Source of the DNA: Thermosynechococcus sp. NK55a
GTDB lineage: Bacteria > Cyanobacteriota > Cyanobacteriia > Thermosynechococcales > Thermosynechococcaceae
Reading direction: 5' to 3'
DNA length: 64,000 nt
Assembly (NCBI RefSeq): GCF_000505665.1
Contig: NC_023033.1
Location: 806,001 to 870,000, forward strand
Within the stretch, counting starts at the first letter, position 1. Each line of letters starts with the position of its first letter. A program made the position numbers and the translations under genes. Below, piece after piece: positions 31,457 to 40,122 of this stretch. The notes under the pieces were generated by a model. It did no database searches. It was not told the origin of the DNA and saw only the letters and a program-made list of their open reading frames with translations.

Positions 31457-32074
31457 CTAAGGAATTGTTACCCAGCACGCTTCTTCATCAAATTCATCAA
31501 CTAAACGAAAGCGTTGAAATGTTCCTCGGCCGCTTTGGCGATCGATCCAGATGGGCAGGCTAATCAGACCGCGGTTGTCCCGAATGAGCCAGTGGATTGA
31601 ACCGTCGTTGTCACGATAGGGGCGGATGCCATTCACCAGTGCCCAGGATTCTCCTAGACTGAGCCCCCCAAAGCGAGTGATTTGAGCGGGGGTGGAAAGG
31701 GCCCTCGCCACCCGGTCGGCGAGCTTCACTGTCCCCGCTTCTTTATTGGAATCAATCCGAACAACCACTTTCAAATCTGTGAGCAGTTCGTGGTAATTGG
31801 GTTTTGAGAACTGGCTAGTTGAATAAGTTCCCAAGTTTTGTTTGCTGTACTTATGATGCCGTTGCTTCCTCAAAATTCGGGAGATTGGTGGATCGCCACC
31901 GATGATGCCAATGGCTAGCTTTACTCCCTGATGTTTGTTTATGTCAACTTCCCCTACAAGGGATAGAAGAAGTCCATAAATTGTGGATGGCGGTGGGTAA
32001 CGATAGGTTTCTTTGTAGTCTCGGGCAAAGTTGCGGGGAAAACTGGTACAGGGACAATCAATGTAAAGTTGCAT
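31457..32074 (-). CDS. cas5: CRISPR-associated protein Cas5 (MYXAN/DevS type)
   Basis: 205 residues. The N-terminal RAMP-fold segment with FARDYKETYRYPPPSTIYGL is the Cas5 signature. Cas5 binds the 5' handle of the crRNA and caps the Cascade filament. The ATG is fused to the cas7 stop (TAATG), so translation is coupled. It is the last gene of the cas operon. Length and context match the DevS branch named for the Myxococcus dev operon. Confidence 0.85.
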   Translation of the reverse strand: MQLYIDCPCTSFPRNFARDYKETYRYPPPSTIYGLLLSLVGEVDINKHQGVKLAIGIIGGDPPISRILRKQRHHKYSKQNLGTYSTSQFSKPNYHELLTDLKVVVRIDSNKEAGTVKLADRVARALSTPAQITRFGGLSLGESWALVNGIRPYRDNDGSIHWLIRDNRGLISLPIWIDRQSGRGTFQRFRLVDEFDEEACWVTIP

Positions 32075-33095: not shown

Positions 33096-34585
33096 TCAGC
33101 CTGCTGCTTCTAATTCTTCAGAGGTGCTGGTTGAGTCTTCAGATTTTTCATCAGATTTTCCATAGGTAGCGATCGCCAGCAGCACCAAATCCCGCGCTCG
33201 CCGCCAGTGTTTCTCTCGATGTATCCAGTGGAAAATCTGCGGTCCTTTGCCCTGGGCATTTTTACTGCGGAACTGACTCAGGAAGCTAACCAACGCTGTA
33301 GCAAATTCCTGCTGTGTGCTAGGTCGCTTCAAACGATAAATGACCTTATCGGTCACTTGCTGATAATCCAGATCACGATGTTGTTTTTCAGCTTGATTGA
33401 TCTGTCCAGACAGATATTTTCTAAATGCAGCCTGCACCACATCAAACAGCACTTGTTCTTCAGCATTTAAGTATTCAGTCATTTTTACCAATCCTTTGCG
33501 TTCATGGCCATAGATTTGGTTGGCTTTACGAAACTCAAAAAAGCCTGCATACCAAGGTTTACCAGTAATCAAGTTATCACAGATCCAAGACAGTGTTGTA
33601 GAAGTACGCAGCCAATTTTCTTGATTTTTATTTTGTTGAATACGTGCCGGAAAGGTCTGCCGAGCCACTTCATACAAGTCCAGAACTTCATCCGTAGCTT
33701 GGAAACGATATACCGCTTGCTTTAAATAACTTTGTTGTGCATCCCAGATTTGCTTGCCTAACTGGTAAACTTCACAGTAGGTCACCCGAAACTGTCTGAA
33801 TTCTTCGATGGTTTTTTCCTGCAACAGAAAAGATAGAGCAGATTCGCTAGCACTGCTGCTCCGAAAGTCTCGATAGGTACGCCCTGGTAGGGCTCGGCGT
33901 CTCTTGACCCAGTGCGTTAAGTTTTGAACCTCGGGAATCACCAATGCTGACCGTTTTGAACTTTTGCCACCAATCGTTTGGGGAGGCAGTTCATAGTAGC
34001 CACAGGCAACGGGCAGAAATAGTAAGGCCAGAAAACCTTCGGGAGATTCCCCATAAGCCCCATTGACAGGGCATTCCAGCAATCCAGGCAAGTGATTTCC
34101 CTTGACTGGAATTTCTTTCTTGAAGGCACCCTCACGGTTAAAGGCATCGTTTATTTTTCCTCTTCCGTGTAATAGCACTCCGACAGTGGCTTTATCTCGG
34201 TTCGAATTTCCGGCTCACCTGGCTCAATCAAAAACGTGCGGGTGATAGTTTTTTCTTTGAATTGTCGCTGTTTATTGTGCTGGAGAAAAGTTGATAATAC
34301 GCCCCGAGTGAAACTATATTGCCCCTGCTCATCGAGCTTGAGAGCAGGAACATTGAGATAGCCCGGTTCGTTAATCTGATACGTTCGGTTCAGTAGCCAT
34401 CGCACAACATCCTTGTCTTTCCCTTGCCATTGAAGTTCAACGGACTCATCAGTCACCTGCCAAGTCAAGGGAGCCTGATGACGTTGAGGTTCCAGGTCGG
34501 CTAGCACTAAGGCCAACCCTGCAATCCCAGCGCGATGGGGTAAAAGAAAGTTTGGATCAAAAATTGATAAGGTAAATTTTCTCAC
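33096..34585 (-). pseudogene. cas8: Large Cascade subunit Cas8 (Csx13/DevT-like), split by one frameshift
   Basis: The N-terminal part (34585-about 34155) begins at a GTG preceded by AGGAGAGG. The C-terminal part (to 33096) is a 360-residue frame when read from a GTG at 34178. The two overlap and join exactly if the coding-strand A5 run (plus-strand T5, 34154-34158) has one more A, giving 496 residues and the junction YYTEEEKINDAF. Position between cas3 and cas7 and the size suggest Cas8 of the MYXAN subtype, the PAM-recognising subunit. I recall that Csx13 is described as N- and C-terminal regions in some genomes, so a natural split is possible; the exact one-base join favours a frameshift. 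Confidence 0.72.
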
Positions 34586-34595
34586 AATCCCTCTC

Positions 34596-36881
34596 CTACT
34601 TAAGCGCAAACGCACCCAATTCTGAATCATAGCCCCACTGTTCCTGAGGGGCGATCAAGTATCCCCGGCGGTGGCGCTGCCAACCTTGGATATTGTTCGC
34701 AGGTAGTGGAACAGTGTATCGAGCGAGTTCACTCCATTTAAGCTGGGCAACTGTCGGCTGATCCTGTTCCAGAAGAGCAGTGACGGTATAGCCCGCCTTG
34801 CGCAAGGGGGCCGGGTAGGTTTTCCATTTGCCGTCTAGCCAGACAAAGTGATCTTTGGGTGTGTGTTGGATGTTTAAGTTCTCTAGCCAAGCAGCTAACT
34901 GTCTTTGACTGACTTCTTGAGCAGCAAACTTTTGGATCAGTGCTTCACCTGCCTTTAGCTGATCCTGACTGTAGGGAAAACCAGTTTTTTCATCGGGGTA
35001 AAAGAGGGCATCCCGGGGATGGCCACAGTACTGGCGGTTGAGGCGCCCCAAACGCTGGATTAAGCCTGCCGGGTCAGCTATTTGAGAGACTAAAAGTGTT
35101 GCGGATAAGTCTAGGGACATCTCAGCAACCTGTGTAGTGATGGCCAAGATGGGCTGATCCTGTTTGAAGGCATCTACAACTGCCCGATGGCGATCGACGC
35201 GATCGCCATAACGAAAGCGACTGTGATAGAGAAAGGGTCGCAGTCCCCGAGCTTTGGCTTGCTGATACACAGCGATCGCCGTATCCACTTGGTTGCAGAC
35301 CCACAGGACTTTACCGCCCTTGGCCAATTCCTGCTGAACCCATTCCCAGTCGGGCTCGGTCAGTTGATGGAAACGATAGCGAGGCAAGTCTTCCAGCTCT
35401 TGCGGACCTTGGACAACCTCTACAGGCTCTCCCACTGCTTCCTTAATTGCCTCTACCTGGGTGGGTAAAAACGAGGCAGACATGAGTAAGATGGGCGCTT
35501 TAACCACCTTGAGAAATCGCAGTAAGGCGCCAAAGAGGGCCTCATCATAGCAGTGAACCTCATCAAAGACGAAAGCAGCATTGGCGATCGCCGGGAAGCA
35601 ATACAGGGGACGGCGATGACATTGCAGAAGTCCCAAAACAGTATCGACAGTGCAAATATTGACCTTTGCATCCCATGCTTTGAAGGCTTCCAATTTCTGA
35701 GCTGTTTCATTCACTGATCCATCGCCATTATTTACTTCTTCGCCTGTGCAGGCTAGCTCCAGGTCAACAGCCGAGCGGGAGTGCAACAGTTCCGACTCCA
35801 CTTTGTTATGAACATAGCCTAGAAAGCCTTCGGTGCTCGTGCCTGTAGTGGGATAGCAGAAAAACAGCTTGCGCCCGATCGCGTGTTTTTGTGCCCAGCA
35901 GTAGGCACCGAGAGTTTTACCGCTACCGCAACCTGCACGTGCCAGCGTTACCCGCTGAGGTGTATTGGCTAGATCCGTTTGAAATGGCCGCAGTGAATGA
36001 CCACACAGCCGTGTGTTAATCACTGTTTGCAAATCAGCCTCGGTCAAGGTCTGTTTTAGGACGTCCTCAATCCACTGCTGGAGGCTGATTGCCATCTGTC
36101 CTGAGGCTGAGGCAATAGCATCTGCTGCCACAAGGAGTGCTTTCACTACCGCAACAAAGGCAGCATCTGGCTCCCACTCATCAATAAAAGCATCCAAGAC
36201 CTTCTCCCCTTTATCCTTGATAGTTTTAATTTCCCATTGCTGCGAAAACTGAGAGAGGGGAAGATCTTGCGGCAGCCCTAGCGTTCTCACCCCGTAGTGA
36301 ATCAGCTTGCAGAAGTAAGGATGCTTGACATACCAGTGCAGGCAAGTGTCTCCACTGCCTTCCCGGACTTCCACAAGTTTACCGGTGTCTTTACCGTCTT
36401 TGCCCCCTAGTTTGAGGTGATGACCCCCAGCAGCAGCGATCGCTGTCATGAAGTCAGCATTTGGACATTGAACAAGCCATTCTCGGAACTCCCATGCCAG
36501 TAGCACAGACCCCACTTCATGACGGATCAGTTGAGGGCGCTCCAAGGGATTACGTTGCGGCGACACCGATGGATTGGAACCAATGAGAGAGTATCTAACA
36601 ACCCCTTGGAATTGGTGGTTTGCCTTTCCCCAATCGTGAAGATAGGCCGCTAGTCGTGCCGTTGCCTCCAGGGTTGCAAAGCTGCTATGGCGATCGCCCA
36701 ACCCAAACTGCTGGAGCAAATTTGAGCCTAAGGAATGAACTAAGGTGGTTATTGACTTCACAACGGCAGCTGTGTGGCCGACCAAGTCATGGTCTTCTCC
36801 CCAGTCAGGATTTCCTGGTAGCGAGGATTTTGCCAACAAAATATCTGGCTCTAGTTTGGGTGGAGTAAACCTAGGCGGCAT
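34596..36881 (-). CDS. cas3: CRISPR-associated nuclease-helicase Cas3
   Basis: 761 residues. The N-terminal HD nuclease has HDLVGHTAAV and the HD pair in LAAYLHDWGKANHQ. The SF2 helicase follows: Walker A RAGCGSGKTLGAY, DEVH box in FVFDEVHCYDE, motif III MSASFLP, and motif VI-like QRLGRLNRQ. It unwinds and degrades target DNA after recruitment by Cascade. The start overlaps the cas6 stop by about 11 bases. The cas8 GTG starts 10 bases after the cas3 stop. Confidence 0.95.
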   Translation of the reverse strand: MPPRFTPPKLEPDILLAKSSLPGNPDWGEDHDLVGHTAAVVKSITTLVHSLGSNLLQQFGLGDRHSSFATLEATARLAAYLHDWGKANHQFQGVVRYSLIGSNPSVSPQRNPLERPQLIRHEVGSVLLAWEFREWLVQCPNADFMTAIAAAGGHHLKLGGKDGKDTGKLVEVREGSGDTCLHWYVKHPYFCKLIHYGVRTLGLPQDLPLSQFSQQWEIKTIKDKGEKVLDAFIDEWEPDAAFVAVVKALLVAADAIASASGQMAISLQQWIEDVLKQTLTEADLQTVINTRLCGHSLRPFQTDLANTPQRVTLARAGCGSGKTLGAYCWAQKHAIGRKLFFCYPTTGTSTEGFLGYVHNKVESELLHSRSAVDLELACTGEEVNNGDGSVNETAQKLEAFKAWDAKVNICTVDTVLGLLQCHRRPLYCFPAIANAAFVFDEVHCYDEALFGALLRFLKVVKAPILLMSASFLPTQVEAIKEAVGEPVEVVQGPQELEDLPRYRFHQLTEPDWEWVQQELAKGGKVLWVCNQVDTAIAVYQQAKARGLRPFLYHSRFRYGDRVDRHRAVVDAFKQDQPILAITTQVAEMSLDLSATLLVSQIADPAGLIQRLGRLNRQYCGHPRDALFYPDEKTGFPYSQDQLKAGEALIQKFAAQEVSQRQLAAWLENLNIQHTPKDHFVWLDGKWKTYPAPLRKAGYTVTALLEQDQPTVAQLKWSELARYTVPLPANNIQGWQRHRRGYLIAPQEQWGYDSELGAFALK

Positions 36882-37828: not shown

Positions 37829-39578
37829 GTGCTCAACGCCTTACGGCATCAGAGGTAGAGGCACAGGTCCGCAGGGTTCTTTCCAAGGGGCTTCCGTGCT
37901 CAACGCCTTACGGCATCAGAGGTAGAGGCACCTTCCAATTTCTGGGCGTAACAGAAGGTCTCCCGCACGTGCTCAACGCCTTACGGCATCAGAGGTAGAG
38001 GCACTTCTTCATTCCGCCGCCTACTCTAGTCAAAAAGAGTGCTCAACGCCTTACGGCATCAGAGGTAGAGGCACTTGAGAATTCCAAGGTTCTGGCCGAT
38101 ACCAGCTAGTGTGCTCAACGCCTTACGGCATCAGAGGTAGAGGCACTTAGATAGAGGTAGAGGCACCAACAAAAGGCGGTGCGTGCTCAACGCCTTACGG
38201 CATCAGAGGTAGAGGCACGGGAATCCGAGAAGTCAGTAACTATCAAAAGGCGGTGCTCAACGCCTTACGGCATCAGAGGTAGAGGCACGGTTTTCGGGGT
38301 ACTAGACTATCCTATAAATAGGGTGCTCAACGCCTTACGGCATCAGAGGTAGAGGCACTCTGAGCTCCGCCGTTTAATCTGCCGGGCTTTCGTGCTCAAC
38401 GCCTTACGGCATCAGAGGTAGAGGCACTCTCATTCGGGTCATACGGTGCAATCACATCGGCAAACAATGCGTGCTCAACGCCTTACGGCATCAGAGGTAG
38501 AGGCACTGCTCTATAACCCACCTGCGTATCTTTCGGTAGCTTTTGTGCTCAACGCCTTACGGCATCAGAGGTAGAGGCACTCGAGCGTAAGGATTCCTAG
38601 CGCAAAAGCCGCGCATGGTGCTCAACGCCTTACGGCATCAGAGGTAGAGGCACTTTTTCCGCCAAGCGGAAAGGAAGTTCAAGATCTCGTGCTCAACGCC
38701 TTACGGCATCAGAGGTAGAGGCACGCTCTGCGAGAACGGTGATTACGATTTTGCGTTATAGTGCTCAACGCCTTACGGCATCAGAGGTAGAGGCACAAAA
38801 GGAGGAGAAAATGACGGACAAGGATAGTGTTGTGCTCAACGCCTTACGGCATCAGAGGTAGAGGCACGTCCAGATTTTCTGGCCCTTGCCGGATCGTTGG
38901 GGTGCTCAACGCCTTACGGCATCAGAGGTAGAGGCACTGATCACCTCGTAACCCCTGAGACTACCCATTAGTGCTCAACGCCTTACGGCATCAGAGGTAG
39001 AGGCACAAGGTTGACGGGCCTGCAGAAGACTTTGCTTTAGTGTGCTCAACGCCTTACGGCATCAGAGGTAGAGGCACCAACTAATAGACGGGACAGATGT
39101 GGATATTCAAAAGTGCTCAACGCCTTACGGCATCAGAGGTAGAGGCACTCTAGGTTCCGCCGACGGGACCCCCCGTAACTCTTGATGTGCTCAACGCCTT
39201 ACGGCATCAGAGGTAGAGGCACGCAATCTTATCCTCAAGCTGCCAACAGCAGAAAAGTGCTCAACGCCTTACGGCATCAGAGGTAGAGGCACCGTCGTCA
39301 CTATAATAATCAAATTTGTCGCCAGCCTCACAGTGCTCAACGCCTTACGGCATCAGAGGTAGAGGCACATGAAAGAAAAAATACTAATCTCAGACCAACC
39401 GGTGCTCAACGCCTTACGGCATCAGAGGTAGAGGCACTCTTGACGCGAGATTGGGCACTTTCCACTTCAGAGGTGCTCAACGCCTTACGGCATCAGAGGT
39501 AGAGGCACAAGGTAAAGATTGCTTCCAGCTGCTCTAGGTTTTGTGCTCAACGCCTTACGGCATCAGAGGTAGAGGCAC
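37829..39578 (-). CRISPR. CRISPR array, 25 identical 36-bp repeats and 24 spacers
   Basis: The plus-strand repeat starts GTGCTCAACGCC and ends GTAGAGGCAC. Repeats begin at 37829, 37896, 37969, 38039, 38111, 38183, 38253, 38323, 38392, 38471, 38545, 38618, 38689, 38761, 38832, 38902, 38971, 39042, 39113, 39187, 39257, 39333, 39402, 39473 and 39543. Spacers are 31-43 bases, mostly 33-38. All repeats appear identical, so no decayed terminal copy gives the direction. Read on the minus strand the repeat ends with a GCCGTAAGGC hairpin followed by GTTGAGCAC, resembling the type I layout where Cas6 cuts below the hairpin and leaves an 8-9 base handle. I therefore assign minus-strand transcription, with newest spacers at the right. 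Confidence 0.97.
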
Positions 39579-39828
39579 TGACCCGCCTCAAAAGCCTCTC
39601 TAGAACTATATTAGCACAGGTCATTTTCAAGTATGTCAGCCACTTGATTTTTTTGGCTGTAAAGTTTTTAGCCTGGCCCCGTATTCAGTTGTCAATTCCA
39701 CTCTGGGGAATAGGTTCAGAGATTTTCAAGCACCTCTAAATCTAACAAAAACTCTCAAACCATGTCAAGGGGCTATTTTTGAATATTGATGAATTGAGAG
39801 AATATTTGAGTCCAGAGGTGCTTGCACG
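39579..39828 (-). promoter_or_regulatory. Probable CRISPR leader
   Basis: 250 non-coding bases between cas2 and the last repeat, rich in A+T, with runs such as GATTTTTTTGGC. They lie upstream of the array if it is transcribed from the minus strand, as proposed from repeat structure. An inverted CAGCCA...TGGCTG pair (about 39638-39660) could be a binding site. A leader next to cas1-cas2 is the usual arrangement. Confidence 0.5.
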
Positions 39829-40122
39829 CTAGAAGATCTTGAAATTCTGCTGCGACACTGGCCATGCCCCTGAACGGTTGCAAGCACGGACCCGCTCTAT
39901 GCATTGGTTGCACAGTCCTACGATTAGGAGATCATCTTCCTCAGTTAGGACTTTTTCGAGCTGCCAGCGTAGCTTTTCCCGCTCTCGAGGTGTGAGACGA
40001 CAGCGAAAAATTGAAAACTGCAATCGTTCACCGTAGCCCTCCAACTGCTTATAAACCTGTCGCCATCGCTTGGGATCGCGGATGTCATAGCAGATGAGGT
40101 ACCAATTTTTAGATTCAGCCAT
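39829..40122 (-). CDS. cas2: CRISPR adaptation protein Cas2
   Basis: 97 residues with the ferredoxin-like fold: YLICYDIRDPKRWRQVYKQL carries the conserved aspartate on the first strand, then FSIFRCRLTPRER. Cas2 forms the core of the Cas1-Cas2 integrase. It starts a few bases after the cas4-cas1 stop. Confidence 0.95.
   Translation of the reverse strand: MAESKNWYLICYDIRDPKRWRQVYKQLEGYGERLQFSIFRCRLTPREREKLRWQLEKVLTEEDDLLIVGLCNQCIERVRACNRSGAWPVSQQNFKIF

Follow-up and report, generated by a model that had tools for sequence, protein, structure and literature searches.

A spacer with partial matches to its own repeat and its neighbouring spacer in a type I-MYXAN CRISPR array of Thermosynechococcus sp. 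NK55a

New spacers enter CRISPR arrays mainly at the leader end, and replication misalignment is the explanation proposed for duplications and deletions in arrays (PMC8047081, PMC11472070). Here, an array from Thermosynechococcus sp. NK55a was analyzed in which one spacer is made up largely of pieces of the adjoining array. The window, which is the whole 64,000-nucleotide stretch of DNA analyzed, corresponds to positions 806001-870000 of a single-contig genome of 2,520,064 bases. The array and its associated genes were located in the window as follows.

31457..32074, minus strand: cas5 (DevS), TIGR02586
32074..32991, minus strand: cas7 (DevR), TIGR02585
33096..34630, minus strand: cas8a1 (Csx13/Cmx1), in two frames, 34151-34630 and 33096-34178
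34596..36881, minus strand: cas3, TIGR01587 and TIGR01596
36871..37539, minus strand: cas6 (Cmx6), TIGR02807
37829..39578, minus strand: CRISPR array of 25 identical 36-nt repeats and 24 spacers
39579..39828, minus strand: leader, between the array and cas2
39829..40122, minus strand: cas2, TIGR01573
40126..41793, minus strand: cas4-cas1 fusion of the I-MYXAN type, TIGR03983 and TIGR00372

The array is thus flanked by minus-strand cas genes, with cas4-cas1 and cas2 to the right and cas6, cas3, cas8a1, cas7 and cas5 to the left. Together their products (Cas3, Cas8a1/Csx13, Cas7 DevR, Cas5 DevS, Cas6 Cmx6, Cas4-Cas1 and Cas2) make up the type I-MYXAN set, and the array, with regular identical repeats beside a leader and related arrays in congeners, belongs to the same type. 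Related arrays in the genus resemble this one in their right flank but not in their left, which places the leader on the right and means that reading runs along the minus strand. On that strand a small hairpin lies near the 3' end of the repeat, as expected for Cas6 processing. Spacer lengths range from 31 to 43 nt, and none of the spacers is shared with the other genomes compared. The cas8a1 gene carries a net 5 additional nucleotides as compared to four congeners with a single open frame. Because the frame is split, the Cas8a1 matches fall into two fragments, each slightly under the family cut-off, and with the gene split in the assembly, interference may be lost. The split could mean that the gene is truly a pseudogene, or it could stem from a homopolymer error in 454 reads; the latter may apply since the NK55a genome was read by 454 and an A-run is present at the site.

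Several features of related loci were recorded alongside. Adjacent identical spacers are found in five related arrays (L041, L045, L046, L051 and L052), and L051 has three further duplicate spacers that are not adjacent. In other cyanobacteria, over-long gaps between repeats of one array measure 110 nt (L064, where the gap contains a degenerate repeat), 521 nt (L078) and 343 nt (L082). The congener G003 has a 7-repeat array with a leader (L042, 1160000-1170000) and no cas8a1 was found in its genome, which suggests an orphan array. In the NK55a genome itself (G000), outside the window at ∼549.4-550.7 kb (L009, 3397-4670), two lone copies of the array's repeat in the same orientation flank a 370-aa open reading frame with an HSDR_N restriction-type domain. 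The syntenic site holds a 7-repeat array with a leader in G003 and a single degenerate repeat in congener G005, and the NK55a arrangement suggests a former array, now without spacers, that acquired a cargo gene. Beside the cargo gene, a further non-syntenic segment (L009, 2116-3396) encodes a cyclopropane-fatty-acid-synthase-like methyltransferase.

The spacer of interest, spacer 5, can be divided into the following pieces, given with spacer 6 in the order in which the array is read.

38219..38252, minus strand: spacer 6, the likely source of 9 nt, namely those read first (38252-38244)
38147..38182, minus strand: spacer 5, chimeric, 36 nt, TTAGATAGAGGTAGAGGCACCAACAAAAGGCGGTGC, 20th of 24 from the leader
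38179..38182, minus strand: GCAC, opening 4 nt of spacer 5, same as the end of the repeat (repeat 33-36)
38170..38178, minus strand: CGCCTTTTG, 9 nt identical to positions 1-9 of spacer 6
38167..38169, minus strand: TTG, 3 nt with no assigned source, possibly a tandem copy of the preceding TTG
38153..38166, minus strand: GTGCCTCTACCTCT, 14 nt identical to positions 1-14 of the repeat
38147..38152, minus strand: ATCTAA, 6 nt with no assigned source

In the reading direction, spacer 5 is therefore GCAC-CGCCTTTTG-TTG-GTGCCTCTACCTCT-ATCTAA. The array accounts for 27 of its 36 nt, and the pieces have the order and strand of a contracted repeat-spacer 6-repeat. Perfect repeats stand on both sides, and spacer 5 directly adjoins spacer 6 on the older, leader-distal side. 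A preliminary description of this DNA had placed spacer 5 and both internal matches at these positions, and its coordinates were all confirmed. Where it had reported nearly the last 15 repeat bases, read on the plus strand, positions 38153-38166 (AGAGGTAGAGGCAC) are exactly the last 14 nt, with the 15th mismatched (T for C). The 13 bases it had described as shared (38170-38182, CAAAAGGCGGTGC) do indeed correspond to the closing bases of spacer 6 (38244-38252) followed by the opening 4 nt of the repeat after it.

To place these matches in context, spacers from this array and from arrays of its relatives (294) were combined with 350 from other cyanobacterial arrays of the same repeat family, for a total of 644. 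The longest match of each spacer to its own repeat ranged from 4 to 9 nt across the 294 spacers, except in spacer 5, where it was 14 nt, and reached only 8 nt in the further 350; a match above 9 nt was found in none of the 643 spacers besides spacer 5. Neither 58,800 shuffled spacers nor 165,959 real 36-nt windows of non-array sequence contained a repeat match of at least 14 nt, and no real window with a repeat match of at least 13 nt also had a junction-type match. Since this real-window background takes in viral contigs picked for carrying pieces of spacer 5, it makes the test conservative for the junction match. Among 550 comparisons of adjacent spacers, the spacer 5/6 pair alone reached 13 nt, with the runner-up at 9 nt. 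Two of ∼85,600 non-adjacent comparisons reached at least 13 nt, representing a single pair counted both ways, and neither touches the repeat. The 9-nt core by itself is unremarkable, 8-mers being shared by chance between several spacer pairs of the array; spacer 5 stands out because the core is in register with GTGC, lies in an adjacent spacer pair and comes together with the repeat match.

We judge it about an even call that spacer 5 is a local rearrangement scar, produced by template switching or strand misalignment beside spacer 6 in an array that is otherwise normal. What we infer from the arrangement is how the copying went wrong, which unit it started from and when it happened. While the array was being replicated, the strands would have slipped out of register or the template would have switched beside spacer 6, perhaps onto a tandem second copy of the spacer-6 unit, and a contracted copy consisting of repeat end, spacer-6 start and repeat start would have been laid down before normal sequence resumed. 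A local rearrangement is favored because the repeat and neighbor matches, each rare, co-occur in one spacer, because the pieces are colinear and on the same strand as repeat-spacer 6-repeat, and because spacer 5 adjoins its apparent donor, a match unique among the adjacent comparisons. Five adjacent identical spacer pairs among the 294 spacers show that unit-level misalignment is evidently active in these arrays. Against a local rearrangement, at least two or three breakpoints are required, none with long microhomology, and TTG and ATCTAA (9 nt) have no assigned source.

Other array-internal origins were considered and set aside. The position of spacer 5 would suit a decayed tandem duplicate of spacer 6 better than it suits capture at the leader. 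A decayed full copy is not visible, as the remainders of the two spacers resemble each other no more than shuffled sequence does, and a tandem spacer duplication does not describe a pair that shares only 9 nt of spacer and 4 nt of repeat. A junction of spacers 6 and 18 was also tried; spacer 18 starts with CAAC on the plus strand, which would lengthen the repeat match to 18 nt, yet with 24 spacers to choose from an extra 3-4 nt is easily had by chance. Imprecise integration of spacer 6 into spacer 5 would require a prespacer of ∼25 nt and a further 4-nt deletion.

A possible, if doubtful, alternative is that 36 nt of array-like DNA were taken up by Cas1-Cas2 as a prespacer and integrated normally, the source being this array, a rearranged copy of it, a sister array, or a mobile element carrying a mini-array or a solitary repeat. 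Both flanking repeats are perfect, and cas4-cas1 and cas2, the genes for adaptation, are intact. The 36-nt length falls within the main mode of spacer lengths and is typical of an acquired spacer, although it is also expected if a normal unit was patched. Uptake of host DNA is known (PMC10011333), and viruses may carry mini-arrays with host repeats (PMC7099407). However, because new spacers enter mainly at the leader end, one derived from spacer-6 DNA should sit on the leader side of spacer 6. Spacer 6 must predate spacer 5 under capture, yet spacer 5 lies on the older side, a position that leader-end capture of spacer-6 DNA does not predict and that would call for a second source or for integration at an ectopic site. 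Any source must, moreover, already contain the same odd junctions, and no matching source was found in the NK55a genome, congeners, or viral or genome collections at the sensitivity used.

The searches behind this last point were of several kinds. By exact scan, the 21-nt core of spacer 5 was absent from IMG/VR viral contigs and from genome contigs, three 16-17-nt segments of the spacer gave only chance-level partial matches in IMG/VR, and the exact 31-nt core of the repeat did not occur in IMG/VR contigs. A blastn comparison of spacer 5 with phages and plasmids returned no alignment over most of the spacer. At individual viral loci the best partial alignments had 25/36 identities, which is close to chance, and DNA of the locus had no match among phage records. 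Outside spacer 5, the NK55a genome yielded only repeat-junction pieces and short chance matches, so that spacer 5 does not qualify as self-targeting. Ten congeners contained nothing matching it beyond repeat-spacer junctions; the best of these as a source, 21/22 at a repeat-spacer junction in G010, is weak, 14 nt of it being repeat. No protospacer from which a PAM could be derived was found for this array. As these searches favor exact or long matches, the absence of an external protospacer is weak evidence.

It is unlikely that spacer 5 is an ordinary foreign spacer whose 14-nt match to the repeat and 13-nt match to the spacer-6/repeat junction are coincidental. Its length is unremarkable, the purine-rich AGAGGTAGAGG is simple sequence, and a known protospacer is likewise missing for most spacers of the array. 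The finding was also selected from much sequence, which enriches rare coincidences, and some modest weight is therefore still left to chance. The zero counts among shuffled spacers and real windows described above, and the failure of windows with a long repeat match ever to pair it with a junction-type match, argue against coincidence. A sequencing or assembly artefact in this repetitive region is very improbable. The NK55a genome was assembled with Newbler from 454 reads (mean 282 bp, ∼26x) with Sanger finishing, and was published as ∼2,519,964 bp with one unclosed gap (PMC3907722). Reads of ∼282 bp nevertheless cover some four units, a collapse would drop whole units as opposed to building a chimera within a spacer, and the homopolymer indels typical of 454 are unable to give the spacer 5 sequence. 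Very improbable, too, is an origin from a mobile element whose CRISPR unit, either a mini-array or a mimic of the repeat, had degenerated, which would make spacer 5 the immune record of a repeat-imitating element. Spacer 5 has only the first 14 and last 4 nt of the repeat, the central hairpin of a Racr-like mimic being absent.

The preliminary description had proposed that this chimera came from slippage or recombination between units or from an aberrant integration that captured array DNA. An array-made chimera is still the best reading, and slippage or template switching is favored over capture by the arrangement (adjacency, strand, order and position on the older side), short of proof. It had also suggested that the crRNA would partly match the array. 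Those matches are present, as the first 13 nt of the spacer 5 crRNA equal the repeat-spacer 6 junction, with GTTGA on the 5' side of that junction, and another 14 nt are those with which every repeat begins, but their significance is weak since only 13 and 14 of 36 nt are covered. Partial self-matches of this size are probably too short for type I self-targeting or interference. On the scar reading, the crRNA of spacer 5 would be produced in the same way as the others and would probably guide nothing useful.

Spacer 5 is read as a real, statistically unusual but minor intra-unit scar in an ordinary type I-MYXAN array. It is probably without function, and there is no sign of a new function or a new system. 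If it is a template-switch scar, arrays can change within a unit, besides gaining and losing whole units, and a small share of the spacers with no known target would be home-made as opposed to viral. With one such spacer in 644, the effect is small.

Spacer 5 can be compared with four described phenomena. Like a self-targeting or self-derived spacer it carries host sequence, in this case from the array, but it matches only 13 and 14 of 36 nt and has no full-length chromosomal target. Ectopic spacer integration would likewise put a new spacer inside the array beside an older one; it has been described mainly for type II-A (PMC11472070, PMC8047081), and here position is the sole hint. Viral mini-CRISPR arrays and solitary repeat units (Racr) are foreign DNA with a host repeat and could give rise to a spacer that contains repeat sequence; spacer 5 differs in having no repeat hairpin. 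With array rearrangement by replication misalignment it shares a local setting within the array and the involvement of a neighboring unit, and tandem duplicates occur in related arrays. While the events documented in the papers cited shift whole spacer-repeat units, the breakpoints of spacer 5 lie inside a spacer and a repeat.
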